Shown: positions 11,698 to 30,518 of the stretch, one piece after another
Layout of the letters: each line of letters starts with the position of its first letter
How positions within the stretch are numbered: the first letter of the stretch is position 1
NCBI RefSeq assembly: GCF_003634555.1
Contig: NZ_RBKS01000001.1
Span: 3,100,001 to 3,164,000, forward strand
Direction: 5' to 3'
DNA: 64,000 nucleotides
DNA from: Frondihabitans australicus
Lineage (GTDB): Bacteria > Actinomycetota > Actinomycetes > Actinomycetales > Microbacteriaceae
Made by a program: the position numbers and the translations under genes
Notes under the pieces: model-generated
Seen by the model: only the letters and a program-made list of their open reading frames with translations
What the model was told of the DNA's origin: nothing
Database searches by the model: none

Positions 11698-12635
11698 CTA
11701 GGGAATGAGCGCGAATTTACCGCCGGGGTGCTGGCCGGCGAGCAGTTCCAGCGCTGCGCGCGCGTCGGCCAACGGGAAGGTTCGTGAGACCGGGACCACC
11801 AGCTCGCGACGGGCGGCGAGCTCGACGAGGTGGGAGCGGACTTCGTCGCGGAACCGGACGCTGTCGGGAATATTGCCGCCGACGACCTGATACCCGTCGC
11901 GCGCCATACGGGAGAATCCGGCGATGCTGACGACCCTGGAGGGGTCGGGGGTGAGGGCGAGGGACACGTCGAGTGCTTCGTCGGTGCCGACGTTGTCGTA
12001 GGCGGCATTGATGGCATCCCTGCCTGCGGCCTCGGCGAGGCGCTCTTGGAGTCCGGTGCCGTAGGCGAATGGTTCGCCGCCGAAGCGGCGAATAAGGTCG
12101 AAGTTGTTCTCGCTCGCTGTTCCGAGGATGCGCACACCGAAGGGCCGAAGTTGTTGCAGCAGGCTGACCCCGACGGCGCTGGAGGCGCCGTGCACGATCA
12201 CGGTGCCGCCTGGCTCCGCTCGACGACGCGGAGCATGTCGGCGGCGGTCGCACCGACGAGGAACAGGTTCGCCGCCGCCGGGAAGCTCAAGGCGTCGGTT
12301 TTGGCGAAGACGTCGGAGGCGTTCACATTCAACACGGACGCGTATGCGCCGGGGACCCTGTAGGCGAGCACCGCGTCGCCGATTGCGCCGCCGCCGGATC
12401 CGATCTGGGTGTCCGGGCCGATCGCGGTGATGATCCCGGCGAGCTCGTTGCCGATCGGGAGGGGCAGCAAGGCCGGGTCGCTCTCACCGAGGAGGCCTTT
12501 GAACTCGGTCGGGTTCATCCCCACGGCGCGCACCTCGATGGTCACCTCTCCGGTCTCGGGGGCGTCGACCTCCTCGTCGCTTTCCTGTAATCCGTCAAAG
12601 CTGCCGAGCCGTGTTGCGATCCATCTCGTGGCCAT
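11698..12635 (-). pseudogene. Zinc-type alcohol dehydrogenase/quinone oxidoreductase, broken by a frameshift
   Basis: Reads from ATG 12635. Residues 1-145 are the GroES-like catalytic half (MNPTEFKGLLGE, LPIGNELAGIITAIG, FPAAANLFLVGATAADML) and end at a stop at 12198 after VVERSQAAP. The NAD(P)-binding half resumes in another frame as TVIVHGASSAVGVSLLQQL and runs to GGKFALIP, stop at 11698. Restoring one base near 12206-12212 gives a continuous SQAGGTVIVHGASS, exactly what the family expects, so a one-base deletion (or sequencing error) is likely. The second frame has a GTG overlapping the first stop (GTGA, 12198-12201), so expression as two coupled polypeptides cannot be excluded. Last gene of the minus-strand run starting at 17629. 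Confidence 0.8.
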
Positions 12636-12700
12636 GTGTTCATTCTCCAGTTGTTGTCGGACCTGCCGGTGGTGTCAGCCGCGCTCGTGGGCTGTTCCTG

Positions 12701-13603
12701 TTAGCTCAGGTAGCGGTCGAAGTGTCGGATGGCGGCCTCGGTCGACAGCTCGAACTGCGTGTTGTAAGGCGAGAAGTGGCCACCGTCCATTAGGACGAGT
12801 TCTTTCGGCTCCCCAGCGCCGGTGTATGCGGCGAGGGCCAGGTCGGTGGGTGCGACGTCGTCGTGGGTGGCGACGAGCATCATCAGCGGGGTCGGGGCGA
12901 TCCGCGGAACCCAGATGCTGGGTTCGTATGCGCGGGCACGACGGTTGGATTGCACCGTCATCGCGTTCTCCCACAGCCCATCGGGCAGACCTTGTCGTGG
13001 GTGCAGGTACATCTGGATCGCTTCTGGTTGCCGGTACTGTGCGTTCACCGCTGGGTCGTCGCTGACGAATGCCTGCATCCGTGGGGCTTCGCCGTTCAGC
13101 TGCGCGAGCTCGTCGGCGGCGAAGATCGCCTCGACCCGAGCCACCTGGTCGGGTGCGACGCGGCGCAGGCCGCTCTGGTATCCGCTGATCGTGGGGACCT
13201 GCGCGAAGACGGCTTTGAGGCGCCGGTCCGTGGCGGCGAGGACGAGGGCGTGACCGCCGGCGTAGCTGGTGCCCCAGATTCCGACGCGGTTGGCGTCGAC
13301 CTCGTCGCGGGCTGAGAGGTAGGTGGTCACCCGCCGCCAGTCTTCGATCTGCTGATCGGGGTTGATGTCGTGTCGCGGTGTGCCGCCGCTGTCGCCGAAG
13401 TTGCGGTGGTCGTGCAGGAGGACCGCGTACCCGGCGTTGCTGATCCGTTCGGCGATCGGTGCGATGTCGTGGTAGCGGGTTCCGCCGAAGCCGTGGGCCA
13501 TGGTGATGCCTGCTGCGGGACGGTCCCCGTCCGGGAGATACAGCCAGGCGGCCAGCGTCACGCCGTCGGGCAGGGGGATGGTCACATCAAGTCGTTCGCT
13601 CAC
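12701..13603 (-). CDS. Alpha/beta hydrolase (DUF/X-Pro-dipeptidyl-peptidase-like fold)
   Basis: The 300-residue product has DVTIPLPDGVTLAAWLYLPDG, an oxyanion-type MAHGFGGTRY, DHRNFGDSGG and the nucleophile elbow GIWGTSYAGGHAL (Ser in GTSYAG). A late acid-His region follows: MLVATHDDVAPTDLAL and MDGGHFSPYN. GTG 13603 is selected because AAAGGAG lies 8 bases upstream; the frame stays open further up without family sequence. Members of this acyl-transferring/hydrolysing group act on small esters or lactones. Substrate unknown. Within the minus-strand operon, 65 bases upstream of the quinone reductase gene. Confidence 0.85.
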   Translation of the reverse strand: MSERLDVTIPLPDGVTLAAWLYLPDGDRPAAGITMAHGFGGTRYHDIAPIAERISNAGYAVLLHDHRNFGDSGGTPRHDINPDQQIEDWRRVTTYLSARDEVDANRVGIWGTSYAGGHALVLAATDRRLKAVFAQVPTISGYQSGLRRVAPDQVARVEAIFAADELAQLNGEAPRMQAFVSDDPAVNAQYRQPEAIQMYLHPRQGLPDGLWENAMTVQSNRRARAYEPSIWVPRIAPTPLMMLVATHDDVAPTDLALAAYTGAGEPKELVLMDGGHFSPYNTQFELSTEAAIRHFDRYLS

Positions 13604-13681
13604 GATCGTGCTCCTTTGGTGGTCGGTGTCGAGGGGTGAGGGATTGACCCCCTCGATCACGTGTTGAGAAAAAGCGGATGC

Positions 13682-14941
13682 TCAGCTGTCCCGGGCAGGG
13701 TCCGCACGCACCTCAGCCGGCGCAGACGGTGGGGTGTGGCTTGGCGGAGCGAATAGTGCGGTCAAGGCGAGGGCGGCGATCGCCGCGGCGATGACGACGA
13801 GCAGGTACCCCTCGGTGGTGGCCACCAGCCCGAGGCGGGTGGCCGCGAAGCCAGCGGCGACTGCGGGGGCGCTGAAGGCGAAGTAGCAGAGGATGTACAC
13901 CGCTGCGATCACGGCCCCGCGGTGCTCGGCGCGTGCCCATCGGGCGACGGTTCCGAAGCTGGCGACGGAGATCGCACCGAACCCGATGCCGGCCAGGAGC
14001 GTGCCGATCACAGCGAAACCGGTCGTGTCGGTACGCACGCCGAGGAAGGCTGCCACCCCACCGGCGCCGACAACAATCGCGGCGGGAGCACCGAGCCGTT
14101 CCAGCGGGACGCGGGCCAGCGCGAGTGACGTGAACGCGGCGATGCCGCAGAAGATCGTGATGACGACCGCGCCGGCAAGATGGTTCCGGTAGCCGAAGAC
14201 CGTTTGCGCTATGGAGGGGCCGAGCGAGAAGTACAGGCCGCCGAGCGCCCACGCAGCCAACAGGGCGGGGATGATTGGTGTGAGACGTCGCCTCATCTCG
14301 GCCTGGATGCCCACGCGCGGGACAAGGCTGGGAACTGCGCCAGCGCGACGGGCGACGGTGTCCGGCATCCGGGCGATGGCGACCGCGGCGACGATGAGGC
14401 AGGCAAGAGTCACCGCGTAGACCAGTCGCGTCGGGGCGGGAGCGTATTCGGCCAGAGCGCCGCATCCCAACGCCCCGAGGGCTAGGCCGACGCTCGGCGC
14501 GATGGAGTTGATGAGTCCGGCACGGCCTTTGCGGTCCTGCGGGGCGAGGTCGACGAGGCTTGCGCCCATGGCGGAGATCGCGGTACCGGTCGCGACGCCC
14601 TGGATGAGCCTGGCCACGCAGAGCGCGGCGGTGTCTCCGGCGGCGAGGAAGACGATCATCGAGATGATCTCGAGGGCGATCGCGGCCAACAGCACGGGGC
14701 GACGGCCGATGTGGTCGCTGAGTCGTCCGACGGTGAGGAGCGCCGCGAGCAGCCCGACCGCGTAGATGGCGAAGATCACCGTGAGGGTGGCTGAGGAGAA
14801 ACCCCACTCTCGTTGGTAGATGACGTACAGCGGCGACGGGGCGCTCGACGCGGCGGGAAACAGGGCCACCAGGATGGCGACGACCACGAAGAACAACGGG
14901 TGCCGCCTCGTTGCGGCGGTTGAGCTCAGCGCCTGCGTCAT
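13682..14941 (-). CDS. MFS transporter (12-helix, drug/efflux type)
   Basis: The 419-residue protein has about 12 hydrophobic segments. The MFS loop 2-3 motif GRLSDHIGRRPVLLAA is intact, and ARLIQGVATG with LVDLAPQDRKGRAGLINSIAPSVGLALG marks helices 4-5. Likely exports or imports a small organic molecule handled by the surrounding reductases and hydrolases. The third gene from the end of the minus-strand operon, with short gaps to both neighbours. Confidence 0.88.
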   Translation of the reverse strand: MTQALSSTAATRRHPLFFVVVAILVALFPAASSAPSPLYVIYQREWGFSSATLTVIFAIYAVGLLAALLTVGRLSDHIGRRPVLLAAIALEIISMIVFLAAGDTAALCVARLIQGVATGTAISAMGASLVDLAPQDRKGRAGLINSIAPSVGLALGALGCGALAEYAPAPTRLVYAVTLACLIVAAVAIARMPDTVARRAGAVPSLVPRVGIQAEMRRRLTPIIPALLAAWALGGLYFSLGPSIAQTVFGYRNHLAGAVVITIFCGIAAFTSLALARVPLERLGAPAAIVVGAGGVAAFLGVRTDTTGFAVIGTLLAGIGFGAISVASFGTVARWARAEHRGAVIAAVYILCYFAFSAPAVAAGFAATRLGLVATTEGYLLVVIAAAIAALALTALFAPPSHTPPSAPAEVRADPARDS

Positions 14942-15007
14942 TGCCGTTCCCTTCTCGTTCGTGATGTACGCCCGCCCAGGCGGAGTGGATCGTGTGCGTG
15001 GCGGCCG

Positions 15008-15964
15008 CTACCGGCCGAGGAGCGCCGCGGAGAGCGTCCAGAGACGGTCGGCGTTCTCGCGGTCGATTGCATAGGGGGCGAGACCGGCGCGGTAGTCGTT
15101 GTTGTCGGTCACGATCGTGGCCGGGTTGCAGTCCTCGTAGTACCAACCGGTGACGCCGTCTGCGAGCGGTGACGCGGCCAGGAACACTGCTGTTGCGGCT
15201 CCCTGCGCCACGGTCTTCCATCCGGGTGGGGCGACGTCGCGGTTGGGATCGAACCCGCCGAGACGGCGGGCGAGCTGGTCCGGATCCATGCTGCGTTGAA
15301 AGTTCGTGTATGTCGGGCCCGGCATCGCCGCATTCGCCGTGATCCCGTCGCCCGCCCAACGCCGGGCCGCTTCCACACCGAACAGGATGTTTGCGGTTTT
15401 CGACTGGCCGTAGGCGAGCAGGTCTGTGTACTGGCGGTAGCGGAAGTGGATGTCGTCGAAGACGACCGGTGAATACAGATGTCCGGAGGAGCTCAGGGTG
15501 ACGATCCGGCCACCGCGCACCGAGAGGTGGTCGTGCAGTCCGGCGGCGAGGGCGAAGTGGCCCAGGTGGTGTGTCGCGAACTGCTTCTCCCAGCCCTGCG
15601 GGGTTCGTTGCAGGGCTGGGATCAGGGCGCCGGCGTTGTTCACGAGGATGTCGAGAGGGCCGGTCCAACCGGCCGTGAACGCGTTCACCGACGCCAGGTC
15701 CGCCAGATTCACGTGCGCGACCTGCACCTGAGCGTTGCCGGTCGAGGCGCGGATCAATTCCGCGTGTTGCTCGCCGGCTGCCTTGTCCCGTACCGCTAGG
15801 GAGACGGCGGCTCCCGCGGCGGCGAGGGATCGAGCGATCTCTGTGCCCAGCCCAGACGACGCCCCGGTGACAACAGCGCTCTTCCCGCCGAGATCGACCC
15901 CGGAAAGGACTTCTGCGGTGGTCGTCGCGAAGCCGTACGGCGTGGAGTTGGGACTGGCGGTCAC
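15008..15964 (-). CDS. Short-chain dehydrogenase/reductase (retinol-dehydrogenase-like)
   Basis: NAD(P)-dependent oxidoreductase of 318 residues. The cofactor motif TGASSGLG lies near residues 33-40. NNAGALIP, the catalytic Ser in TLSSSGH and YGQSK (Y-x3-K) are all present. The length and HHLGHFALAAGLHDHL pattern fit the larger SDR subgroup related to retinol dehydrogenases and protochlorophyllide reductases. Substrate unknown. Part of the minus-strand operon (66-base gap to the MFS gene, 79-base gap to the hydrolase gene). Confidence 0.88.
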   Translation of the reverse strand: MTASPNSTPYGFATTTAEVLSGVDLGGKSAVVTGASSGLGTEIARSLAAAGAAVSLAVRDKAAGEQHAELIRASTGNAQVQVAHVNLADLASVNAFTAGWTGPLDILVNNAGALIPALQRTPQGWEKQFATHHLGHFALAAGLHDHLSVRGGRIVTLSSSGHLYSPVVFDDIHFRYRQYTDLLAYGQSKTANILFGVEAARRWAGDGITANAAMPGPTYTNFQRSMDPDQLARRLGGFDPNRDVAPPGWKTVAQGAATAVFLAASPLADGVTGWYYEDCNPATIVTDNNDYRAGLAPYAIDRENADRLWTLSAALLGR

Positions 15965-16043
15965 GAGCAGACGCTTTGGCTGCGCGTGCGCGCGGTTAGT
16001 GCGGGACCGTTCGGCGCTGCCTGCATCGGGGATCGCACTGGCG

Positions 16044-16817
16044 CTAGTCCTGATGTGCCGCGAAGAAGGCGCCGATGGCGGCGGCCGTCGCTCCGGTGGC
16101 TTGCAGGTGCGGGTGGTGCCCCGCGCCAGCGATGGTCTGGGTTATGGCGTGTGCGAACCGGGGTGCGATGGCGGATTCCACGAACGCGGGGTTGGAGACT
16201 GGGTCGTGCTCGCCCGCGAGGAGAAGGACCTTGCCTTCGAACCGGCTGGTGGTCTCCCCGGCAGGGTGGCCTTCGGCGAAGGCGTCGCAGTATTGCTGGA
16301 GGGTGTCGGCGGGCACGGCGAGAGCGTCCGTGGTGAGCGCTTGACCGCCGTCGCCGAGCTCGGCGAACACGTCGAGCTGGGAATGCAGTAGTTCGCCGGC
16401 GTCGATGGCGGGTGCTGGCTGCCCGGGTGCGTGCGCTCCGCCGAGCGGGATCGGATCAATCAGAATGAGGCGTTCGACCAGTTCTGGGCGGCTGATCGCA
16501 GCAAGTTCGGCGATCTGAGATCCCATGCTGTGCGCGATGATCGTGGCCGGTTTGCCGACGGCGTCGATCACCGCGGCGACGTCCGTGGCGGCGGCCTCGA
16601 TCGCATACGGCGTGGCCGCTCCTGTGCGAAGCCCCGAGCCGGGCAGGTCGATCCGAACCACCTCGCGGTCACTCTGGGCGAGCTCCTCTGCGAGGGCATC
16701 CCAGGAGGCGGTCGTTTCAGCGAAGCCGGGGATGTACACGGTGGCGGCGGGGCCGTCGCCCTCACGGGTGAACGTGACCGGTGTGCCGGTGGCGGTGGTG
16801 ACGGTTGCGGTGGCCAT
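16044..16817 (-). CDS. Alpha/beta hydrolase, paralogue of the one at 29716-30468
   Basis: The 257-residue product has the HG-type oxyanion region YIPGFAETTASW, nucleophile elbow IAHSMGSQIAEL (Ser in HSMGS), acid region LLAGEHDPVSNPAFV and catalytic His in IAGAGHHPHLQ. The whole second half matches the 29716-30468 hydrolase closely (PLGGxHA, DVLQQ/DTLQQ-x-CDAFA-GH, FVxxxIAPRF, IAGAGHHPHL). Ester or C-C bond hydrolase; substrate unknown. Second gene of the minus-strand operon, 56 bases after the SDR. Confidence 0.87.
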   Translation of the reverse strand: MATATVTTATGTPVTFTREGDGPAATVYIPGFAETTASWDALAEELAQSDREVVRIDLPGSGLRTGAATPYAIEAAATDVAAVIDAVGKPATIIAHSMGSQIAELAAISRPELVERLILIDPIPLGGAHAPGQPAPAIDAGELLHSQLDVFAELGDGGQALTTDALAVPADTLQQYCDAFAEGHPAGETTSRFEGKVLLLAGEHDPVSNPAFVESAIAPRFAHAITQTIAGAGHHPHLQATGATAAAIGAFFAAHQD

Positions 16818-16873
16818 AACGCCCTCTCTTTCCAGTGCTCTCGGGACCCCGGGTTGGGTGAGCCCGGTGAATC

Positions 16874-17629
16874 TCAGTGGTGGTGGGCTTGGCCGGCATC
16901 GACGAAGAGTTCGCTGCCGGTCATGCCGGAGCTCGCGTCGGAGAGCAGGAACAGGGCCGCGGCGGCGACCTCGGACGGCTCGATAAGCCGATTGAATAAG
17001 GTTTCCGCGGCGAGCCCCGCCAGGAGCCCGGAGGGGTCTGCGCCGTCGGACAGCCCTGCTAAGCCCGGGGTACGGGTGGGGCCGGGGACGATGTCGTTGA
17101 CCCGGATACCGCGCGGTGCGAGCTCGGTCGCCCAGGTGCGGGTCAGGGTCGCCAGCGCCGCCTTGCTCGCGGAGTAAAGGCCGAAGTTCACCAGGCCGCC
17201 CGGGGCGGCGGTCGAACCGGTGGAGACGATCGAGGAGCCTTCGCCGAGGAGTGGCAGCGCTTTCTGAATGGTCAGGATCGCGCCGCGGACGTTCGCGGCC
17301 AGCGCGGCGTCGATGTCGGCCGCGGTCACGGTCTCCAGGGACGCGAACCGTCCTCCGCCGGCGTTGACGACCAAGCCGTCCAGGTGACCGTGGGTCTCCG
17401 TGATGCGGGCGAACAGCGCGTCCAAATCGGCTTCCTCGGCGGCGTCGGCGCGGATTCCGACGGCGCTGGGGTCGAGGCTCACGGCCGCGTCCTTAAGGGC
17501 TTGTTCGCGGCGGCCCGTGATGATGACGGTGCCGCCAGCGGCGACGAGAGCGGATGCGATGCTGAAGCCGATGCCGGCGGACGCGCCGGTGACGAGGATG
17601 GTCTTACCGGTGAAGGTGGCGGATTCCAT
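16874..17629 (-). CDS. Short-chain dehydrogenase/reductase, paralogue of the one at 27553-28371
   Basis: Classical SDR of 251 residues: TGASAGIG cofactor loop (about residues 14-21), NAGGG, Ser in STGSTAAPGG, YSASK (Y-x3-K), then PGPTRTPGL and the C-terminal TGSELFVDAGQ. ATG 17629 is preferred: GAAAGG is 7 bases upstream and the family sequence begins directly. First confirmed gene of the six-gene minus-strand run reaching 11698. The regulatory box at 17914-17933 lies about 285 bases upstream. Confidence 0.88.
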   Translation of the reverse strand: MESATFTGKTILVTGASAGIGFSIASALVAAGGTVIITGRREQALKDAAVSLDPSAVGIRADAAEEADLDALFARITETHGHLDGLVVNAGGGRFASLETVTAADIDAALAANVRGAILTIQKALPLLGEGSSIVSTGSTAAPGGLVNFGLYSASKAALATLTRTWATELAPRGIRVNDIVPGPTRTPGLAGLSDGADPSGLLAGLAAETLFNRLIEPSEVAAAALFLLSDASSGMTGSELFVDAGQAHHH

Positions 17630-17908: not shown

Positions 17909-17933
17909 ATCGCGTCCAATGATTTCTTCTGCT
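17909..17933 (-). promoter_or_regulatory. LysR-type regulatory box A (operon 17629-11698)
   Basis: Read on the minus strand, 17933-17914 is AGCAGAAGAAATCATTGGAC. The overlapping dyad ATC-N9-GAT (17909-17923) is a T-N11-A LysR-type site. Same orientation relative to the downstream gene as boxes B-E. Confidence 0.65.
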
Positions 17934-17935
17934 AA

Positions 17936-18206
17936 TGCTCAGCATCAAATCTGATGAGCGTTTGAGCCGTCCTGCGGATTCGCCGTCGCGACCCCTCCAG
18001 CGCTTGGGTGCAGGCCCTCTGACGCCCGCGTGCGGCCGCTGCACTATTCGCCCATAGTTCGGAGGCAACGGCCTTTCTGTCCATCCGAGGGCGTCGCCGG
18101 GCAGGCCAGTGCGTCAGCGTGCTCGTCCTCGTTTCTCGGCGCGTCTCGAACCCGATGTCGGCCCTACCCTCTGTCGGGTCGACCGATCCGACGTGCGCGG
18201 GAGCCC
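17936..18206. other. Spacer downstream of the lysR gene
   Basis: No gene seen. A partial hairpin at about 17936-17959 (GCTC and CATCA pairing with TGATG and GAGC) could end the leftward lysR transcript; it has no T run. Confidence 0.3.
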
Positions 18207-19118
18207 TCAGGCCAATCCATCAGTGTCGGCCACCGAGAGAGGCGCCATCGTGTTTTCCAGGATGCGAACAAATGCCTGGAGGGGCTGCGATGCTCGCCGT
18301 CCCGTCGGCGTGCCAAACATCAGTCGCCAGATCAGCGACACCCCGGAAACGTCGAGCACCACCAGATCGTTCGGGATGAGATCGTCGCTGAGGAACCCGA
18401 TGCCGATGCCTTGACGGATAAATTCGCTGGCTGTTCCCACATCGGGGACCTCCAGCGACACTCGACGGGTGAGGTGGGCTGCCGCGAAGGCGTCGTCGAT
18501 GATGGTGCGGTTGCCGTAGCCGACGGGCGAGTCGACGAAGCTCTGGTCGACGAGTTGCTCGAGGACGACGGAACCGGCGCCGGCGAGGGGATGATCCGGG
18601 CTGACCACGAGGTGCAGAACTTTGCGGGAGATCTCGACGAGGTGCAGCCCGGCGGGGGTCGGCCCCGAATACGCAAGGAAGGCCGCGTCGATCTCCCGCG
18701 CGAGGATCTGTTCGATCAGCCCGCGAGATCCCCCGGCCGACGCTCTCAGGCGCACTTCGACACCGGGGTGCGCTTTCCCGAGCTCCGCCAGCATCCGGGG
18801 CAGGTCGATGAAGGTAGCCGAGCGCATCATCCCGATCGTGAGAAGCCCCGCGACGCCGTCCGCGGCGGCCGCGACGAGTTCCTTGGCCTCACGGGCGGCA
18901 TCGAGGGTCGCTCGAGCCGCGGGAAGGAAGACCGTTCCGGCACCCGTGAGAGCGACCGGGTGCACGGTCCGATCGAATAAGGGGCTGCCGAGTTCGGCCT
19001 CCAACCGACGGATCGTTGCGGAAACACCGGACTGCACGACATGCAGGTCGCGAGCGGCCTGCGAGAAGCTCGATGTCTCGGCGACCGCGACGAAGTACTC
19101 GAGCTCGCGCAGTTCCAT
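18207..19118 (-). CDS. LysR-family regulator, likely regulator of the 11.7-30.5 kb gene set
   Basis: The 303-residue product starts MELRELEYFVAVAETSSFSQ. The wHTH follows (QAARDLHVVQSGVSATIRRLEAELGSPLFDR), then a periplasmic-binding-type effector domain (IGMMRSATFIDLPRMLAELGKAHPGVEVRL; GIGIGFLSDDLIP). ATG 19118 gives the canonical family N-terminus. Divergent from the MFS gene at 19202; the 83-base spacer contains box B, the classic LysR autoregulatory arrangement. Its effector is probably a substrate or intermediate of the neighbouring enzymes. Confidence 0.92.
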   Translation of the reverse strand: MELRELEYFVAVAETSSFSQAARDLHVVQSGVSATIRRLEAELGSPLFDRTVHPVALTGAGTVFLPAARATLDAAREAKELVAAAADGVAGLLTIGMMRSATFIDLPRMLAELGKAHPGVEVRLRASAGGSRGLIEQILAREIDAAFLAYSGPTPAGLHLVEISRKVLHLVVSPDHPLAGAGSVVLEQLVDQSFVDSPVGYGNRTIIDDAFAAAHLTRRVSLEVPDVGTASEFIRQGIGIGFLSDDLIPNDLVVLDVSGVSLIWRLMFGTPTGRRASQPLQAFVRILENTMAPLSVADTDGLA

Positions 19119-19151
19119 TCTCAAACACTATCACTCTGGATGATGATGTCG

Positions 19152-19176
19152 AGCAGCATAAATCGTTGGACATGAT
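19152..19176 (+). promoter_or_regulatory. LysR-type regulatory box B (lysR / MFS divergent promoter)
   Basis: AGCAGCATAAATCGTTGGAC at 19152-19171; the dyad ATC-GTTGGACAT-GAT covers 19162-19176 (T-N11-A). It ends 30 bases before the MFS ATG at 19202 and lies 34 bases upstream of the lysR ATG. Confidence 0.7.
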
Positions 19177-19201: not shown

Positions 19202-20662
19202 ATGACCATCACTGATATGACCCCGCGCCGGCGAGGGATGCTCCTGGCCTTGTGCTGTGTGAGTGTTCTCCTCGTCGGCATCGACATGACTGGCGTCAAC
19301 GTCGCCCTCCCCGCGATCGGCTTGCACCTCGGAGCGTCCGTCACTGGCCTGTCGTGGGTCGTTGATGCGTACACCGTGACACTCGCTGCCCTCCTGCTGT
19401 TCTCCTCGTCGTCGGGCGACCGCTTCGGCCGACGCAAGGTGTTCCTCATGGGCCTGGGCGTGTTCGTGATCGGGTCGGCGCTCTGCGCGATCGCTCCGAC
19501 GCTGTCGTGGTTGATCGTGTTCCGGGTCCTCCAGGCCCTGGGCGCGTCGGCGTTGAACCCGGTGGCCATGGCGATTCTCGGCACCGTCTACACGAAGCCG
19601 GCCGACCGTGCTCGCGCCCTCGGCATTTGGGGCGGAGTGATCGGGCTGTCGTTGGCCCTCGGCCCGATCGTCGGCGGAGCCCTCGTCGACTCGCCCCTCG
19701 GCTGGCGGTGGATCTTCGTCATCAACGTGCCGATTGGCATCGCCACCATCATCATGACACTCCGGATCATCCCTGAGTCGAAAGCCGCCTTCGCCCGTCG
19801 CTTCGACCTCGCTGGTCAGATCTTCGTCGCTCTGGGGCTTGCCAGCCTGACCTTCGGCATCATCGAGGGGTCGAGCCTCGGCTGGTCGTCGGCGCCGATC
19901 CTGGTCGCCTTCCTCGTCACCGCCCTCTGCCTCGTCGGGATCCTGTTCTACGAGCCCCGCCGCTTCGAACCCCTGATCGAGATCGGCTTCTTCCGAAGCT
20001 TCCCCTTCAGCGCATCGAGCATCATGGCTGTCCTCTCGTTCGCCGCGCTGGGCTCGTTCCTGTTCCTCAACAGCCTCTACCTCCAGCAGGGCCGCGGCTT
20101 CACCGCGTTCGGCGCCGGCCTTCTCGTCATGCCGCTGGCGATCGTCGCGATCTTCTTCGGCCCGATCTCGGGCAGGATCCTGGCCCGCCACGGTGCCCGT
20201 ATCCCCTTGATCGTCGCCGGCATCGGCATCGGCGGCACCGGTGCCCTCCTCGCTTTCATCGATCAGAGCACGCCGACATGGTGGCTCCTCATCGCCTACA
20301 CGGTCATGGGCTTCGGCAACGCCGCCGTCGGAGCACCGATCTCGCAGACCGCGGTCGCCGGAATGCCCAGAGAGCGCATCGGCATCGCCACCGGCATCAG
20401 CTCCACCAGCCGGCAGGTCGGTGCGACCCTCGGCGTCGCCATCGCCGGCGCCGTCCTCGCAGGCCACGCAGGGCATGGGACGACGATCGCTGAGCACACG
20501 CACATCGGGTGGATCATCAACGCCGGTTACGGTGCAGTCATCCTCGTCATCGGGCTTCTCTCGACGACGAAGTGGGCGCACGCCTCAGCGCACGCGGTCT
20601 CTGATGCCCTGACCACGGAACCGCCGCTGACTGGCCCCGTCCCTGAAGTCCAGCAGGCCTGA
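19202..20662 (+). CDS. MFS transporter, DHA2 (14-helix) drug:H+ antiporter type
   Basis: The 486-residue protein has about 14 hydrophobic segments. Motifs: GIDMTGVNVALPAIG (DHA2 motif in helix 1), LSWVVDAYTVTLAALLL, GDRFGRRKVFLMG (loop 2-3) and ALGPIVGGALVD (motif C, antiporter). Actinobacterial relatives export drugs or metabolites. ATG 19202 is chosen because the frame upstream overlaps the divergent lysR gene and lacks family sequence. Box B lies 30 bases upstream, so it is probably induced together with the enzymes. Confidence 0.9.
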   Translation: MTITDMTPRRRGMLLALCCVSVLLVGIDMTGVNVALPAIGLHLGASVTGLSWVVDAYTVTLAALLLFSSSSGDRFGRRKVFLMGLGVFVIGSALCAIAPTLSWLIVFRVLQALGASALNPVAMAILGTVYTKPADRARALGIWGGVIGLSLALGPIVGGALVDSPLGWRWIFVINVPIGIATIIMTLRIIPESKAAFARRFDLAGQIFVALGLASLTFGIIEGSSLGWSSAPILVAFLVTALCLVGILFYEPRRFEPLIEIGFFRSFPFSASSIMAVLSFAALGSFLFLNSLYLQQGRGFTAFGAGLLVMPLAIVAIFFGPISGRILARHGARIPLIVAGIGIGGTGALLAFIDQSTPTWWLLIAYTVMGFGNAAVGAPISQTAVAGMPRERIGIATGISSTSRQVGATLGVAIAGAVLAGHAGHGTTIAEHTHIGWIINAGYGAVILVIGLLSTTKWAHASAHAVSDALTTEPPLTGPVPEVQQA

Positions 20663-23221: not shown

Positions 23222-24613
23222 TCAGGTGGAAGGCGTGATGTTGTGGTTCAGGCGGAACGTGTTTTTCGGGTCGAAGCGGCGCTTGAGGGTCCTGAGTCGG
23301 TCGAAAGCGTCGTCGCCGTACGCGGCCGCGACGAGTTCCGGCGTCACATCGGAGCTGGCCATGAAGTTGAGGTACGTCTTTCCGGTGCTCCACGGCTGAA
23401 GGCTCCGGATGAAACCGTCGGCGTATGCCATGGCCGGTACCAGGTCGTTGGGCATGCCGATGGCGACGATCCAGAACGCGAACCGGGCGTCGCGGTTCCC
23501 GACTGCGGAGACGAAGCCGCCGTCGTTGGCGAGTGCGCCGCCCAGGTGGCGGAGCTCGACGAACTGGACGGGGCTCTCAGCGTCGGGGCCGGCCCATTCG
23601 AGAAGAGTCGAGATTGTCTCGTCGGACAGCTCGGTGAGCAGGTCGGTTCGCTCGAGGAACGGCGCACCTTCTGTGGGGTCCGAGTGGATCGACGCGAAGT
23701 CGGTGTAGGGCAGCTCCGCGAGGGTGTCGACCATCACGGGGGCGGCGGTCCGCAGAGGTTCGACGAACGCCTGCCAATCGACGTCCGTTCCGAGCCCGGC
23801 GATCCGAACGTGGATCACGAAGGCGCCTTGCAAGAACTCTGGAACGAATGGGAGAGGCGGAAGTCGGAGCAGGGCGATCGATGTCGTCGCCTCGGCGGGG
23901 GCCGACGCAGTCAGCCGTGCGTATGCGTGGAGCACGGCTTCGGCATGCGCGCCGGCGAAGAAGAGGCCACCGCCGAAGAGCGTGGGCAGCGGAAACAGGT
24001 CGAACTCCATCGCCGTCACGATGCCGAAGTTGCTTTTGCCCCCGAGGAGGGCACCGAAGAGGTCGGCGTTCTCCGTCGGGGTGGCCCGCACCATCTCACC
24101 TGAGGCCGTGACGACATCGAGACGACGCACGTGGTCGGAGGCCCACCCTCGCGAACGTCCCATCGTCGGGCTCAACCCGCCGCCCAGGGTGAACCCGACG
24201 ACCCCGACGAGGGGGGACGAGCCGTTCAGCGGCGCAAGTCGCACGGCGGCGGCGGCTTCGACGACAGCTCCCCAGCGGGCTCCCGCGCCGACGGTCGCGG
24301 TTGCCTCTTTCTGGTTGATCGCGACCGATGCCATCCGTGACGTCGTGATCAGGAGGGCGTCGTCGAAGGTCGTCGTGGCCTGGTGCCCCGTCGCCATGAC
24401 GGCGACGGGCAGGTCGTGGCCCGTCGCGAAGAGGACCGCTGCCTGGATGTCGGCGGCGCTGGCCGCAACGACGATGAGGGCAGGGCGGTGTGCTATCGCG
24501 GAGTTATACCCAGACGACTGGGCCGTGTAATCGGCGTCTCCGGGGACGAGGACGTCGCCGTCGATCGTGGCGGCGAGCCGCTCGATGTCATGGGCTGTTA
24601 TCCCTGTGGGCAC
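23222..24613 (-). CDS. FAD-linked oxidase, berberine-bridge-enzyme type
   Basis: The 463-residue protein has a PCMH-type FAD domain (HRPALIVVAASAADIQAAVLFA, VMATGHQ carrying the His that usually holds FAD covalently, then SPLVGVVGFTLGGGLSPTMGR and GGKSNFGIVTAMEF). It ends with a BBE domain (KTYLNFMASSDV, RLRTLKRRFDPKNTFRLNHNI). No Cys for a second covalent link is obvious in GVVGFTLGGG. Oxidises alcohols, sugars or aromatic/alkaloid-type substrates with O2. No signal peptide, so cytoplasmic. Lies between the SnoaL-like gene and the 24702 gene, all on the minus strand with gaps of 26 and 88 bases. Confidence 0.88.
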   Translation of the reverse strand: MPTGITAHDIERLAATIDGDVLVPGDADYTAQSSGYNSAIAHRPALIVVAASAADIQAAVLFATGHDLPVAVMATGHQATTTFDDALLITTSRMASVAINQKEATATVGAGARWGAVVEAAAAVRLAPLNGSSPLVGVVGFTLGGGLSPTMGRSRGWASDHVRRLDVVTASGEMVRATPTENADLFGALLGGKSNFGIVTAMEFDLFPLPTLFGGGLFFAGAHAEAVLHAYARLTASAPAEATTSIALLRLPPLPFVPEFLQGAFVIHVRIAGLGTDVDWQAFVEPLRTAAPVMVDTLAELPYTDFASIHSDPTEGAPFLERTDLLTELSDETISTLLEWAGPDAESPVQFVELRHLGGALANDGGFVSAVGNRDARFAFWIVAIGMPNDLVPAMAYADGFIRSLQPWSTGKTYLNFMASSDVTPELVAAAYGDDAFDRLRTLKRRFDPKNTFRLNHNITPST

Positions 24614-24701
24614 AATGGGTCTCCTCGGTGTGGGGTCATTGGCGACTCCCCTACTTCACCGGACGGCCGTTGCAACGTCGTTGACGAAACGTTGACGCCC
24701 T

Positions 24702-25250
24702 TCAGCCCTGGCGCAGGGCTCGACGCTCGATGCTCGCTGCGTAGTGCGGTGTCTCGACGTGGTTGTGGGCATCGGAGGCTTCCTGGCGTGCGGCGGCGGC
24801 CTGCTCAAGGGGAATACCGTGGGCCTCGTAGAACGCGAGTCCGTCCTCGGTCGGGTGTGCGATGACGCTGTTGCTGAAGCGGGCGGTCCCGTCGCCGTTG
24901 TCGGTGACCCGGAGTTCCCAGATGCCTTGCGAAGTGGTCCAGCCGTTTGCGGTCAGGGCATCGGAGATCGAGACGAGTCGCAGGTGGTCCTTCTCGAAGA
25001 TGTCGTGGACAGCGTGCTGGATGGTCAGCGTCGTGCCGATCATCTCGACGTTCAGGGTCTCTGATCGCCCATCGTCGGTCACCCCATGGGCGCAGGCCTT
25101 GTGCTCCCCTGGTGCGCAGCGCTGGTACTCCTCGTCGGTGAGGTTCCGCAGCCAATCGGCGAGGTCGATCTGGTCGAACGGCGCGGTGATCGTGGCATAC
25201 ACGGTCGAGTCGGAAAGGACGATATCGGAGCGAACGGTGGTGTCAGTCAT
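24702..25250 (-). CDS. Conserved hypothetical protein, possibly SRPBCC-like
   Basis: The 182-residue protein has no signal peptide or membrane segment. It starts MTDTTVRSDIVLSDSTVYATITAPFD; the middle alternates short hydrophobic strands (SETLNVEMIGTTLTIQHAVHD, GIWELRVTDNGDGTARFSNSVIAHP), which is compatible with a START/SRPBCC-type beta-sheet fold but is not diagnostic. ATG 25250 lies 31 bases after regulatory box C, so it heads the transcript 25250-22689. Function not assigned. Confidence 0.7.
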   Translation of the reverse strand: MTDTTVRSDIVLSDSTVYATITAPFDQIDLADWLRNLTDEEYQRCAPGEHKACAHGVTDDGRSETLNVEMIGTTLTIQHAVHDIFEKDHLRLVSISDALTANGWTTSQGIWELRVTDNGDGTARFSNSVIAHPTEDGLAFYEAHGIPLEQAAAARQEASDAHNHVETPHYAASIERRALRQG

Positions 25251-25276: not shown

Positions 25277-25301
25277 ATCGAGTCCAACGATTTCTCCTGC
25301 T
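25277..25301 (-). promoter_or_regulatory. LysR-type regulatory box C (operon 25250-22689)
   Basis: On the minus strand 25301-25282 reads AGCAGGAGAAATCGTTGGAC; the dyad ATC-N9-GAT is 25277-25291 and is palindromic to four bases (ATCG/CGAT). Ends 31 bases before ATG 25250. The bases before the start (TGACCCTGGATGC) also match those before the MFS ATG 19202 (TGACCCTGGAGCC). Confidence 0.7.
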
Positions 25302-25351
25302 GGAAGCCATCACTTTTTGTCCTACCGATACGAGCGCGTCCGCTGTGCATC

Positions 25352-25398
25352 ATCGTTGTTCGTGCTTCGGTTCAGCACAATTCATCGTTGGACGTGCT
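25352..25398 (+). promoter_or_regulatory. LysR-type regulatory box D, with a second half-conserved copy (aldehyde dehydrogenase promoter)
   Basis: AGCACAATTCATCGTTGGAC at 25374-25393; the dyad ATC-GTTGGACGT-GCT at 25384-25398 has one base off. A 13-of-15 copy of the dyad (ATCGTTGTTCGTGCT, 25352-25366) lies 32 bases upstream, about three helical turns, as in two-site LysR promoters. The gene starts at 25469 behind its own strong ribosome site. Confidence 0.6.
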
Positions 25399-25468
25399 GA
25401 CCGTGAGAGCGGAAAGTAACTGAAGGAGATCGACTCTCCGATCTTCTTTCCCGGAAGGAGCCGCCGAG

Positions 25469-27001
25469 ATGGCGAGCATCAATCACGACCCAAGCCGTTT
25501 CCAATTCGCGCCGCTCACCACCTCCCGTTGGTCCTCCGACGATCCGGCGAATGAGTTCGATGTCGACAACCCCGCGACCGGTCAGGTCATCACCCGGGTC
25601 GCCGGAAGCAGCGCAGCCGAGGTTGACGCCGCAATCGATGCGGCCCATGCCGCGTTCACGGGCGGTTGGCGAAACACGACGGCTGCCGAGCGAAGCGCGC
25701 TTCTGGCCCGGTGCGCCGACGCCCTCGAAGCACACGCCGACGAGCTCGCGGAGATCCTGACGGCCGAGAACGGCAAGCCCTTAGCCGATGGCCGGTTCGG
25801 GGACGTGCAGTTCCTCCTCGACATCTTCCGCTTCTACGCCGGCATCGTCGACAAGATCCCGAGCGACTTCTTCGAAGTCGGGCCGGTGTACGCCTCCACC
25901 GTCTTGGAGCCGTTCGGAGTCGTCGGGGCGATCATTCCCTTCAACTGGCCCCCGATTCACACCGGCGGCAAGGTCGCGGCGGCCCTCGCCGTCGGCAACA
26001 CGGTCGTGGTCAAGCCGGGCCCCCAGTCACCGCTCACCATCATGCGCATCATCGACATCATCAGCGAGGTCCTGCCGGCAGATGTCGTCCATGTCATCCC
26101 GGGCGGAGCGGAGCCCGGTCGGGCCCTCGTCGCCAACCCGCTGGTCAGGAAGATCTCCTTCACCGGATCAACGCGAGGCGGTATGGCCGTCGCCGCCGCC
26201 GCCGCAGCGAACGTGACCCCGGTCACGCTCGAGCTCGGTGGAAAGAACGCGTTCGTCGTCTTCGACGACGCCGACCTCGACCTGGCCGTCCGCAATGCCC
26301 TCGAAGGCGGCTTCTTCAATAAGGGAGAAGCGTGCACAGCCGCCTCCCGTGTGCTCGTACAGCGCGGTATCGCCGACGAATTCACCAAGCGGCTCGCAGA
26401 CGGGGTCCGGTCCCTGCGCGTGGGCGAAGGGATCGACCCGAAGACCGTGGTCGGCCCGGCCGTCTCGCGTGACCAGCAACAGCGCGACCTGGACTACATC
26501 CGCATCGGCGAGGAAGAAGGCGCCACGATCGTCGCGCAGGCGAACCTGCCGGCCGATGACCGCCTCTCCGACGGGTTCTGGGTTCCGCCGACCCTCTTCG
26601 CCGGGGTGACCAGAACGATGCGCATTGCCCAGGAGGAGATCTTCGGCCCCGTGCAGACCATCAACGTCTTCGACACCGAAGACGAGGCAGTCGACATCGT
26701 CAACGAATCGCCGTACGGTCTCGTGGCCGCGGTCTACAGCCAGGACCAGGCGACAGCGTTCCGCGTGGCACGGCGCATGGAAGCCGGGATGGTGCACGTG
26801 AACAACTACCACCGGTGGCCGCTGACGACCCCGTTCGGCGGCGTCAAGCACAGCGGCTACGGTCGCGAGCACACGATGGCGACGCTTCAAGAATTCGGCG
26901 CCGTCAAGATGATCCGCTTCCCCACCGGGCTCACCGAGCTGCCTTCCTGGCGAGGGACCGTCGAGGTGTTCGGCCATACGGGAAGCGTGCCGATCGGCTG
27001 A
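25469..27001 (+). CDS. NAD(P)-dependent aldehyde dehydrogenase
   Basis: Oxidises an aldehyde to the acid. The 510-residue protein has FGVVGAIIPFNWPP, the cofactor motif SFTGSTRGG, general base Glu in VTLELGGKNAF (E255) and catalytic Cys in NKGEACTAASRV (C289). It ends with the conserved PFGGVKHSGYGREH. ATG 25469 follows GGAAGGAG. Single-gene unit to the right of boxes C/D, divergent from the 25250 operon. Probably the last oxidation step of the local pathway; substrate unknown. Confidence 0.93.
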   Translation: MASINHDPSRFQFAPLTTSRWSSDDPANEFDVDNPATGQVITRVAGSSAAEVDAAIDAAHAAFTGGWRNTTAAERSALLARCADALEAHADELAEILTAENGKPLADGRFGDVQFLLDIFRFYAGIVDKIPSDFFEVGPVYASTVLEPFGVVGAIIPFNWPPIHTGGKVAAALAVGNTVVVKPGPQSPLTIMRIIDIISEVLPADVVHVIPGGAEPGRALVANPLVRKISFTGSTRGGMAVAAAAAANVTPVTLELGGKNAFVVFDDADLDLAVRNALEGGFFNKGEACTAASRVLVQRGIADEFTKRLADGVRSLRVGEGIDPKTVVGPAVSRDQQQRDLDYIRIGEEEGATIVAQANLPADDRLSDGFWVPPTLFAGVTRTMRIAQEEIFGPVQTINVFDTEDEAVDIVNESPYGLVAAVYSQDQATAFRVARRMEAGMVHVNNYHRWPLTTPFGGVKHSGYGREHTMATLQEFGAVKMIRFPTGLTELPSWRGTVEVFGHTGSVPIG

Positions 27002-27552
27002 CGCCAAATGCGTCGCGCTCAAGCCCTGGCGCAAGCGTCAGGGAACCCTCCCGTGATCAAGCGGTCAGTCATCGCCGTCTTCACGCCGGCGCAGGCGCAC
27101 CTTCAGGCTCGCGTCGTCTGTCAACGCCCGCGCAGCTCCTGGCTCAGCTTCTCCAGGGGCAGGTGCGCCGGCCGGCAGGTCACCTCGCTGAGCAGAAAAC
27201 AGCCGCTCACATCACCCCGCGACGTGCTTCCCCGGGTCACGACGGGGCAGCCGAAGCCGGTGCGAATGGCCACATCAGGACGCGGACTACTCCCCGGGCG
27301 GTGCCCGGTGAGACGCGAGCGTACGCATGGGTGACGGAGAGGAGCTCCGTCGGCCGCCCGCACGCGGGTCCGCCGTGGATTCGTGACCGGCCCAGGGATT
27401 ACCGAGACGCGGCCAGGTGCGACGTCGTCTATCACGGCTGACCGGGTCAGCCACCGACTCGGGATTGCTCGTTTCGCGCGCAAGGGGTCGGTCTGCCCGA
27501 CGACGCGCGGCTAGTCCAAGCGCCGCTGCGCGTCCACTAGCCAGGCCGACGA
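27002..27552. other. Non-coding or decayed spacer
   Basis: About 550 bases between two genes that converge on it. Open frames on both strands have Arg/Pro-rich, shadow-like composition; none has a ribosome site or recognisable motif. No clear hairpin with a T run. May hold a decayed gene. Confidence 0.4.
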
Positions 27553-28371
27553 TCAGACCTGCGCGTAGCCGCCGTCGACGAACAACTCGGTTCCGGTGAC
27601 GAAGCTCGACGCATCGGAGGCGAGGAACACAGCGGCCTTCCCGATCTCGTCCGGCTGACCGACACGACCGAGGGGCACCCTCGACGAGAACCCATCGAGG
27701 AGATCCTGCAGATGTCCAGGCTTCGCGAGACCCGAAAGACCGGGCGTCTGCGTAGGGCCAGGGCTCAGAACGTTGACGCGGATCCCGCGACCGCGAAGGT
27801 CCATCACCCAGGTCCGGGCGAAGCTGCGGAGCGCGGCTTTGGTTGCGGCGTACACGCTGAGCGAGGGTGACCCTTGGACGGACGTGTTCGATCCGATCAG
27901 GACGATGGAAGACCCAGGGCCCATGAGCGGCAACGCCTTCTGCGCCGCGAACAGAGTGCCTTTGACGTTCAGGCCGAAGACGACGTCGAATTGCTCTTCC
28001 GTGATGTGCCCGAGCGGCGCTACCGAACCGGCGCCGGCGTTCGCTACCAGAACGTCGAGTCGACCGAACCTCTGGCGGATGTCGTCGAAGAGCAGGTCGA
28101 GGCCGTTCAGGTCGGCTGCGTCCGCACGCACCCCGACGAGACGTTCGCCGAGAGCGGTGCGCGCTGCGTCGAGATCGCCCTGGTTGCGGGCGGTGATGAA
28201 TACAGTCGCGCCCTCCGCGATGAACTGCGTGGCGATGCCGAGACCGATTCCTCGACTTCCGCCCGTCACGACGGCGACTTTCCCGTCCAGCGCGCGTGTA
28301 CGGCCGGCAGGATGGTCGAACCCGTCCGGACCGGACGTCTGTGCGGCGGTGTCGAGGTCCTTGTCGGTCAT
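27553..28371 (-). CDS. Short-chain dehydrogenase/reductase, paralogue of 16874-17629
   Basis: The 272-residue classical SDR has TGGSRGIG near residue 37-44, ANAGAG, Ser in LIGSNTSVQG, YAATK (Y-x3-K), SPGPTQTPGL and the terminal TGTELFVDGGYAQ. It shares with the 16874 SDR the stretches FARI/DDI-QRFGRLD-LVANAG, QKALPL-G-GSSIV and NVLSPGPTQTPGLSGL. ATG 28371 is chosen over longer in-frame starts because the family sequence begins after a short 27-residue tail. Downstream of the OYE and hydrolase genes on the same strand. Confidence 0.88.
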   Translation of the reverse strand: MTDKDLDTAAQTSGPDGFDHPAGRTRALDGKVAVVTGGSRGIGLGIATQFIAEGATVFITARNQGDLDAARTALGERLVGVRADAADLNGLDLLFDDIRQRFGRLDVLVANAGAGSVAPLGHITEEQFDVVFGLNVKGTLFAAQKALPLMGPGSSIVLIGSNTSVQGSPSLSVYAATKAALRSFARTWVMDLRGRGIRVNVLSPGPTQTPGLSGLAKPGHLQDLLDGFSSRVPLGRVGQPDEIGKAAVFLASDASSFVTGTELFVDGGYAQV

Positions 28372-28579
28372 GGGGTCCTTTGCATGGTGACGTCTGCCAG
28401 GAGCGTGGAGCGCGGCACCTCCGGCGAGTGATTTTGGCGGCGCGGATGCTCTTGCCCCGTCGCTGCGCGCCCTCCGGAACGCGGGCTCGCGTGGCTTGCT
28501 GCGCCCTGTCCGGACAGAGCAGCGTGTTTCTGCACTGGTAGGCGTGCTGGGGTCGCCTTGGCCACGGGAGTACGGCCGT

Positions 28580-29713
28580 TCAGTGGTCAGCCGCGGCCAG
28601 GGGGTCGGCGATCGTGGCCGTCGGATAGTCGATGTACCCGGCGGTACCACCGACGTACATGCTGCTGCGGTCGGGATCGGCCCAAGGCAGCCCCAGAGCC
28701 AGGCGCCGAGGCAGATCCGGGTTCGCCACGAACGGCAGACCAAATGAGACGGCATCGGCAAACCCGGCATCAAGAACGGCCTCGGCCGACTCGGCATTGA
28801 ACCCACCGTTCGCGATCACCGTCCCATCGAACTTTGAGCGCACGCGCTGCAGCAAAGCGGTCCGGTCCTCGGCGACGAAGTCCGCCCAGGCGCTCGTCCG
28901 CGGCGCCATGGCGTGAACGTACGACACGGTCTTACCGACCTCCGTGAGCGCGTAGTCATAAGCGGCAGACGAATCGTCGTCGAAGACGTGTGCCTCGCCT
29001 TCCGTCCAGTAGGGTGCGATCTTGATCCCCAGGATGCCCGTGCCGATGGACTCGGATACGGCACGAACGACCTCGAGGAAGAATCGCGAACGCGCCTTGA
29101 CGTCTCCGCCGTAGCCATCCGTTCGCCGGTTGGAGCGCGGATTCGCGAACTGTGAGATGAGATAGCCGCGGTGAGCGTGGATCTCGACTCCGTCGAATCC
29201 GGCACGCATGGCGTTCCGCGCAGCAGACGCGTAGTCGGCGATGGTGCGCTCGATGTCGTCGACCGACATCGCGCGGGGTGATTCGGTGCTGACGCGACCG
29301 GACGCTGTCGACACTTTGCCTGCAGGATTGATCGACGAGGGCGCGAGCGGGAGTCGCCCTCCGAGGAGGTCGCGATGCGACATCGCACCGACATGAACCA
29401 GCTGAGCGATCAATGCGCTCCCCGTGCCGTGCACCGCGTCCGTCACAGAGGACCATCCGGCGACCTGCTCGTGCGAGAACAGGCCGGGAAGGTTGATTCC
29501 ACCGATCGCGTCACGCGAGACAGCGAGGCCTTCGCTCACGATCATGCCGGCTCCTGCGCGTTGACCGTAATAGGTTTCGTGGATTTGCGTCGGCGCGGAG
29601 GCCGCATTGGTCGTGCGGGCGCGGGTCATTGGCGCCATCACGACACGGTTCGCCAGCGTCCGCTCACCGAGGGTGAGCGAGGTGAACAGGTGGGAGGTGG
29701 TCGGTCGTTCCAT
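28580..29713 (-). CDS. Old Yellow Enzyme-type NADH:flavin oxidoreductase
   Basis: FMN-dependent ene-reductase of 377 residues, starting FTSLTLGERTLANRVVMAPMTRAR. It includes ALIAQLVHVGAMSH and the barrel segments GFDGVEIHAHRGYLISQFANPRSNRRTDGYGG, VIANGGFNAESAE and AVSFGLPFVANPDLP. The substrate-binding pair is usually H-x2-N or H-x2-H (HGANGY); here it reads HAHRGY, so the +3 residue is Arg182. Reduces activated C=C bonds or nitro compounds; the unusual site may alter specificity. Directly follows the hydrolase gene (2-base gap), so the two are co-transcribed from box E. Confidence 0.9.
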   Translation of the reverse strand: MERPTTSHLFTSLTLGERTLANRVVMAPMTRARTTNAASAPTQIHETYYGQRAGAGMIVSEGLAVSRDAIGGINLPGLFSHEQVAGWSSVTDAVHGTGSALIAQLVHVGAMSHRDLLGGRLPLAPSSINPAGKVSTASGRVSTESPRAMSVDDIERTIADYASAARNAMRAGFDGVEIHAHRGYLISQFANPRSNRRTDGYGGDVKARSRFFLEVVRAVSESIGTGILGIKIAPYWTEGEAHVFDDDSSAAYDYALTEVGKTVSYVHAMAPRTSAWADFVAEDRTALLQRVRSKFDGTVIANGGFNAESAEAVLDAGFADAVSFGLPFVANPDLPRRLALGLPWADPDRSSMYVGGTAGYIDYPTATIADPLAAADH

Positions 29714-29715
29714 AT

Positions 29716-30468
29716 TCAGCTTCCTGCCGTAGCGAAAGACGCGATCGCCGAAGCGGTCGCGGAGGGCTGTTCGAGATGGGGGTGATGGCCGGCTCCGGCG
29801 ATCGGAGCCATCGCGACCCGACTGAATCGCGGGGCAATGTGGGTTGCGACGAACGTCGGCGATGCGATCTCGTCATCCGCGCCAGGAATCACGAGTACGG
29901 GACCGGTGAAAGCGCTCGCCTGCTCGCCGTCCGAATGACCGGCCGCGAACGCATCGCAGTGCTGCTGGAGAACATCGGCCCGGATCTGCCGGGCCGATGT
30001 CGCAAGCTCACGGCCGAGGGCCCCCAACGTGGAGAAGACCTGTAAGGAGGTTGCCCGCAGACCCTCTGCGTCGATTACCGGCGCTTCCTCTTCAGATGCA
30101 TGCAGCCCACCGAGAGGAAGCGGAGCTAGGAGTACCAGCGACGTTACGGCCGACGGGCGGCGCGTCGCCGCGAGCTCGGCAACCTGCGCTCCCATGCTGT
30201 GAGCGATCAACGACACCGGGCCCCCAGCCGCGTCGATAGTATCTACCAAGTCGTCCGCGAACCGCTCGAGCGTGAACGGACCTGCGGCATCAAGCTGGCT
30301 GCCAACCCCCGCCATGTCCGGTCGGACACGTCGCACGTTCGCCGACCCAAAGACATCGATCATGGGACCCCATGCCTGCCCCGTCTGCGCGAAACCGTGC
30401 ACGAACACAACTGCAGAATGAGTCGATGACGGCAAGGATGCCGAGGACGAGCGTCGCGCCGAAGTCAT
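29716..30468 (-). CDS. Alpha/beta hydrolase, paralogue of 16044-16817
   Basis: The 250-residue product has VVFVHGFAQTGQAW (oxyanion), nucleophile elbow IAHSMGAQVAEL, acid region VIPGADDEIASPTFV and catalytic His in IAGAGHHPHLE. Strongly alike over its second half to the 16044 hydrolase. ATG 30468 is favoured because it lies 30 bases after box E, matching the other regulated starts; the frame remains open to 30504. First gene of the unit hydrolase-OYE(-SDR). Confidence 0.87.
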   Translation of the reverse strand: MTSARRSSSASLPSSTHSAVVFVHGFAQTGQAWGPMIDVFGSANVRRVRPDMAGVGSQLDAAGPFTLERFADDLVDTIDAAGGPVSLIAHSMGAQVAELAATRRPSAVTSLVLLAPLPLGGLHASEEEAPVIDAEGLRATSLQVFSTLGALGRELATSARQIRADVLQQHCDAFAAGHSDGEQASAFTGPVLVIPGADDEIASPTFVATHIAPRFSRVAMAPIAGAGHHPHLEQPSATASAIASFATAGS

Positions 30469-30493
30469 GAGTCTAGCCTGCGGCCTCACGCCA

Positions 30494-30518
30494 ATCACGT
30501 CCAACGACTGTTTCTGCT
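30494..30518 (-). promoter_or_regulatory. LysR-type regulatory box E (hydrolase-OYE operon)
   Basis: On the minus strand 30518-30499 reads AGCAGAAACAGTCGTTGGAC; the dyad is 30494-30508 with one base off (GTC-N9-GAT in the sense direction). Ends 30 bases before ATG 30468. GGCTAGACT just before the start could serve as a -10 of a near-leaderless message. Confidence 0.62.

Follow-up and report, generated by a model that had tools for sequence, protein, structure and literature searches.

A repeated box before five transcription units of Frondihabitans australicus, read as part of a LysR-type operator

What does one 20-nucleotide (nt) box do in front of five transcription units of a single gene cluster? 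The question is raised by a stretch of 64,000 nucleotides from Frondihabitans australicus (contig NZ_RBKS01000001.1, positions 3,100,001 to 3,164,000; hereafter the window), in which the boxes stand before oxidoreductase, hydrolase and exporter genes, near a lysR gene. An earlier, sequence-only reading took them for the sites of this LysR protein and the cluster for a coherent oxidative pathway or detoxification system. The LysR regulon is strongly supported by the comparative evidence presented here, while the coherent pathway is read from family names only. We consider it probable, at roughly 0.8, that the boxes belong to a LysR-type operator, of which they form the promoter-proximal part, and that this operator, consisting of a recognition binding site (RBS), a middle AGC half-site and an activation binding site (ABS) that overlaps the -35 element, is switched by the LysR protein of the window. 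As far as sequence can tell, there is therefore good support for a local regulon under LysR control, of a known kind and apparently unpublished.

The boxes and their promoters

The regulator gene and the candidate sites, each upstream site followed by its box, are:

18207 to 19118, minus strand: lysR gene, LysR-type, 303 amino acids (aa), no cysteine (Pfam HTH_1 and LysR_substrate)
19130 to 19144, plus strand: RBS dyad of the intergenic region between lysR and the major facilitator superfamily (MFS) gene, exact ATC-N9-GAT, 32 bp before the ABS
19152 to 19176, plus strand: box and ABS dyad with -35 TTGGAC, before the MFS gene at 19202-20662
17941 to 17955, minus strand: RBS-like upstream site (ATC-N9-GCT) of the presumed leftward operon
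17909 to 17933, minus strand: box and ABS dyad with -35, presumed leftward operon
25309 to 25323, minus strand: upstream site with only the GAT half kept, presumed operon of a 182-aa protein and a BBE-type oxidase
25277 to 25301, minus strand: box and ABS dyad with -35, same presumed operon
25352 to 25366, plus strand: upstream site (ATC-N9-GCT) of the aldehyde dehydrogenase (ALDH) gene
25374 to 25398, plus strand: box and ABS (ATC-N9-GCT) with -35, ALDH
30526 to 30540, minus strand: upstream site (ATC-N9-GCT), presumed operon of a hydrolase, an old yellow enzyme and a short-chain dehydrogenase/reductase (SDR)
30494 to 30518, minus strand: box and ABS (GTC-N9-GAT) with -35, same presumed operon

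All five 20-nt copies of the sequence-only reading are present, at 17914-17933 (-), 19152-19171 (+), 25282-25301 (-), 25374-25393 (+) and 30499-30518 (-), with 1, 0, 0, 3 and 2 mismatches to its pattern, and each points toward the following gene (5 of 5). When up to three mismatches are allowed, the pattern AGCAGNANAAATCGTTGGAC has five matches in the window and none in 100 dinucleotide shuffles. The whole genome (4,036,723 bases) contains it at the same five places only, spanning 12.6 kb, and the reversed pattern gives no match in the genome. The inner core ATCGTTGGACNNGAT with at most one mismatch adds a single place, at position 2,422,742 of the genome. With two mismatches allowed, the core has 53 matches, of which 30 were scored with the matrix described below; among these the six known sites reach 30.0 to 60.5 and the other 24 at most -8.0 at the site. 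An equal density of boxes throughout the genome, which would have spoken against a regulon, is found in neither the pattern nor the core scan.

Two parts of the promoters had been overlooked. The 3' part of the box, TTGGAC, has the position of a promoter's -35 hexamer, and each of the five promoters has a second dyad or half-dyad upstream, at a spacing of exactly 32 bp, about three helical turns. In the proximal dyad the T-N11-A of LysR operators lies inside ATC-N9-GAT. This dyad, said to be always ATC-N9-GAT, is exact in three of the five copies; before ALDH it is ATC-N9-GCT, and at 30.5 kb GTC-N9-GAT. Upstream, an ATC or GAT half is present at the correct column in all five promoters (background 0.031), the full dyad only before the MFS gene. 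Relative to TTGGAC, four promoters have ATC at -36 and four have it at -4; none of the other offsets from -45 to -4 carries it in two or more promoters. The middle half-site AGC is at column 23 (matrix numbering) in all five, and column 13 carries GAT in two and GCT in three.

Downstream, the A/T pair of a -10 element (xAxxxT) follows at 18 bp in four promoters and one base further in the fifth. The start codon comes 30 nt after TTGGAC for the MFS and 30.5-kb hydrolase genes and 31 nt after it for the 182-aa gene, a spacing that suggests leaderless transcripts in these three cases. Counted from the equivalent base, the leader would be about 45 nt for ALDH and, if its ATG is correct, about 250 nt for the SDR gene at 17629. 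If the MFS start codon is numbered +1, the centre of the distal dyad is at -65 and that of the proximal dyad at -33. In LysR systems the RBS is reported near -65, with ABS' near -10 and ABS'' near -35 (PMC4730206), and the predicted arrangement is the standard LysR RBS/ABS geometry.

The -35-like hexamer and the -10 at 18-19 bp could also mean that the boxes are merely similar constitutive promoters and not LysR sites. We regard this as very improbable: a common promoter type is expected to recur in the genome, which the pattern does not, and neither the RBS half-sites at 32 bp nor the tie to one LysR subfamily, described next, would be explained.

The operator beside related LysR genes

Relatives of the LysR protein were sought in three genome sets, the own genome counted in each, and were found in 16 genomes among 99 relatives (E <= 1e-40), 24 among 398 family genomes (E <= 1e-50) and 10 among 394 class genomes (E <= 1e-58); a scan of genome contigs gave 14 loci, the best at 40% identity. 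The relatives nearest by tree path are four proteins from one genus of another family (f22/g121), 47-49% identical. Others reach 45% (f37) and 47% (f36), and the best within the own family 43%.

Fifty intergenic regions beside related LysR genes were extracted, and 49 remained when the own paralogue was left out. The 31 promoters with exact TTGGAC at the expected place were kept and 18 dropped; 29 non-redundant ones gave a matrix of 73 columns with the consensus tATCgc..a...cGAT.a.tg..AtC...a.t.ttCGTTGGACacGATg, followed by a -10-like cAxxcT at 18 bp. Since the training promoters were selected for TTGGAC, its presence in 29/29 is by construction; the flanking columns were not selected, and there ATC is found at column 1 in 22/29, GAT at column 13 in 26/29 and GAT at column 45 in 20/29. 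The middle AGC occurs in 4/29.

This matrix, trained on other genomes only, ranks the five boxes first to fifth in the window (44.9, 40.2, 37.3, 30.1 and 30.0), followed by 14.1 and then 1.9, and the best score in the reversed window (one strand) is -4.6. When only the upstream columns are scored, all five promoters are still within the top 0.4% of window positions (fractions 0.00005 to 0.0039), and that of the lysR/MFS region is within the top 0.005%. In a leave-one-out test, 27 of the 29 training promoters reach at least 21.9. The 14.1 site, at 43965, is not claimed as a regulon member. Its TTGGAC lies at the junction of another LysR gene, at whose 3' end it stands, and a following gene for a DUF1275 membrane protein (42858-44757, plus strand).

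Twelve LysR genes of the own genome pass the Pfam cut-off, and a strong site within 1.5 kb is found at only two of them, the lysR of the window (44.9) and a paralogue 36% identical to it (60.5); among the others one reaches 14.1 and nine score -5.5 or lower. The place at 2,422,742 lies directly upstream of this paralogue, which is transcribed away from an MFS gene, and it gave the first hint of a LysR subfamily to which the element belongs. Apart from the five boxes, it alone comes within one mismatch of the core in this genome. Its score is higher than that of all five boxes, although this score is not fully independent: the training set excludes the paralogue itself but includes L045, a relative of the same genus. 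The boxes might thus be bound mainly or also by the paralogue, in which case the cluster would answer to another signal or to two. We think this unlikely, as the middle half-site is AGC in the five copies and ATC at the paralogue's site (AGC is not unique to the five, see above), and as one copy is located in the divergent promoter of the window lysR itself, the usual place for a LysR site.

Around related LysR genes the operator is typically single. In 43 LysR loci (831,636 bases, own paralogue included), sites above 12 occur once in 30, twice in three and not at all in ten, and none of the 43 has five sites around one LysR. A second site scoring more than 20 is found near LysR in two loci (L119 at 17372, 29.4; L153 at 11196, 36.0), and L115 has one at 13.0. 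The site in L153, from relative G278, is on the plus strand and precedes the gene of a cytochrome bd subunit I. A site is also carried by a Rhodococcus koreensis plasmid (54.4) and a weaker one by a Streptantibioticus cattleyicolor megaplasmid (13.0). The exact 14-base core is present in 24 of 39 related genomes; of the copies away from LysR, the ten loci inspected (nine places, as L147 equals L206) are inside open frames, with scores of -41.6 to -63.9, and were therefore taken as chance. In five loci (L075, L076, L077, L078 and L080) TTGGAC is missing at the expected place, where GCGTTGTT is found instead, perhaps a diverged operator.

In a comparison of 23 LysR loci, own paralogue included, with the window genes, a homologue of the MFS gene at 13682 is beside LysR in 13 and an ALDH in four. 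An ALDH 51-53% identical to the boxed one adjoins all four f22/g121 LysR genes (L101, L102, L104, L105). When one of these was searched back, the boxed ALDH was the best match in the own genome (53%, 533 bits, against 40-42% and at most 313 bits), so the boxed ALDH, here 6 kb from lysR, is tied to a related LysR elsewhere.

Several observations weigh against the assignment of the boxes to this LysR protein. One ABS half is degenerate in the ALDH and 30.5-kb copies, as is one RBS half in every copy except that of MFS. The 18 dropped promoters lack an exact TTGGAC (variants include TTGGTG, TTGGCG, TTGGAT, TTAGAC and TTTGAC), two training promoters score low in the leave-one-out test (13.1 and -5.5), and ten of the 43 loci are without a site above 12. 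Two of the four ALDH-side intergenic regions in f22/g121 pass the score of 12 (28.5 and 22.3) and two fail, and the 47% relative of f36 (G570) has neither an ALDH in its locus nor a site above 12. The LysR tree groups the protein with the four ALDH-paired LysRs only weakly (86/18). No LysR above 49% identity was found in the genome sets searched, so that the complete cluster is without a counterpart for comparison; the whole cluster was not found elsewhere in these genomes. Finally, the ALDH and 30.5-kb promoters are 50% identical outside the box and may therefore share descent. Together with the paralogous pairs in the cluster (two SDRs and two hydrolases, each pair 47% identical), this would suit an origin of all copies as relics of segmental promoter duplication, not maintained as operators. 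Such an origin is hardly probable, since the other nine of the ten promoter pairs are only 29-42% identical outside the box while all ten have 15-18 of 20 bases in common inside it, the first genes after the boxes belong to five different kinds, and other families have retained the same site.

The genes, the regulator and the proposed switch

The genes behind the five boxes are:

11698 to 17629, minus strand: presumed operon with SDR, alpha/beta hydrolase, SDR, MFS, alpha/beta hydrolase and a zinc-type alcohol/quinone dehydrogenase in two frames (Pfam)
19202 to 20662, plus strand: DHA2-type (EmrB-type) MFS exporter (TIGR00711 above cut-off)
23222 to 25250, minus strand: 182-aa protein, then BBE-type FAD oxidase after an 88-bp gap (Pfam, BBE)
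25469 to 27001, plus strand: ALDH
27553 to 30468, minus strand: presumed operon with alpha/beta hydrolase, old yellow enzyme and SDR (Pfam)

Co-transcription is presumed within the first and the last of these units; in the first, the intergenic gaps measure 21-79 bp. Its dehydrogenase (11698-12635) has a GroES-like half ending at 12198 and a nucleotide-binding half beginning at 12201, with a 4-base overlap, which may be a frame break, a coupled split gene or a sequencing error. The 182-aa gene (24702-25250, minus strand) had been called SnoaL-like, a name we drop: no Pfam family matches it up to E = 5, and the model predicted for it is of too low a quality to support a name (mean pLDDT, the predicted local distance difference test, 48.3). 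It has two homologues at 50% among 345 class genomes (own included), both in g121, the genus that also holds the nearest LysR relatives. In their surroundings (39.8 and 28.7 kb) neither LysR nor ALDH has a match at E 1e-8, and no matrix site exceeds 9; two SDR matches (32% and 43%) occur in one of them. A BTAD/NB-ARC (SARP/AfsR-like) regulator (20758-22749, plus strand) lies inside the cluster without a box of its own, 95 bp after the boxed exporter with which it is perhaps co-transcribed. Further away, 45901-53061 (plus strand) is an open frame of 2386 aa whose translation looks RHS/YD-repeat-like by eye.

The lysR gene starts with ATG at 19118 and has a box in its divergent promoter, both as previously described. 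Its product matches HTH_1 (79.2 bits) and the LysR substrate-binding domain (129.1 bits), both above the Pfam cut-off. It contains no cysteine, unlike a redox-thiol sensor of the OxyR kind, so thiol redox sensing is excluded and the protein probably senses a small molecule. On the minus strand, TAGTGT, the proposed -10, is followed by six bases and the ATG of lysR. As the RBS is directly upstream of this -10, lysR is probably autorepressed.

We suggest the following switch. From 5' to 3' each promoter would present a distal dimer site (RBS), the middle AGC half-site and a proximal dimer site (ABS) with the -35 TTGGAC; if transcription begins at the start codon, the RBS would be centred at -65, the usual LysR position. 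A tetramer of the 18207-19118 protein would bridge RBS and ABS and, without ligand, cover the -35. With ligand, one dimer would move toward the AGC half-site, so that the -35 is freed and transcription activated. One small-molecule signal could then turn on the five units with about 13 genes, or 14 with a co-transcribed BTAD regulator, including exporters, SDRs, hydrolases, ALDH, the BBE oxidase and the old yellow enzyme. As to the signal, our guess is a compound that is electrophilic or generates aldehydes.

Significance and known LysR systems

The mechanism is textbook, and the interest therefore lies in the growth of the regulon and in the inducer. It can tentatively be speculated that a LysR subfamily across several actinobacterial families keeps, at one divergent gene that usually encodes an exporter or an aldehyde dehydrogenase, a rigid 73-bp module with nod-box-like operator, -35, -10 and, in many cases, a leaderless start, and that four further operators arose here to give a cluster-wide detoxification regulon. 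In that scenario the added operators have mostly unrelated flanks, and the AGC common to the five sites is rarer elsewhere. If true, this would be a traceable case of regulon growth by repeated new operators. With the regulon reading itself, a cluster of vague oxidoreductases becomes a testable unit of one regulator and about 13 target genes, and the LysR subfamily, present in many actinobacteria, gains a precise model of its operator.

The system was earlier called apparently undescribed, and it was not found in the searches made of open-licence literature, judged partly by titles and the openings of abstracts; nor was TCGTTGGAC found there together with LysR. A nod-box consensus gave no literature match. 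Similar systems are known. In Pseudomonas, MexT likewise links a LysR protein to export, through an efflux operon, and to an oxidoreductase (mexS); it differs in its pump family and in one cysteine considered for redox sensing, compared with none here (PMC6018408). MmsR, also from Pseudomonas, is a LysR protein acting on an aldehyde dehydrogenase gene, with 3-hydroxypropionic acid as inducer and mmsA as the named target (PMC6441110).

At the level of the operator, ATC-N9-GAT is the known motif of the nod box, the 47-bp operator of the LysR protein NodD. Genes and inducers (flavonoids) are different there, and no orthology is claimed. In a comparison of the operator pattern with its description in the literature, the palindrome, the overall length (columns 1-47 here) and the overlap with the promoter are alike (PMC5596368). 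The sliding-dimer regulators BenM, OccR and DntR have their ABS' placed near -10, whereas the AGC as alternative position is proposed here by inference; common to them and to the promoters of the window are the RBS near -65, the ABS located at -35 and one more half-site as potential second ABS position (PMC4730206).

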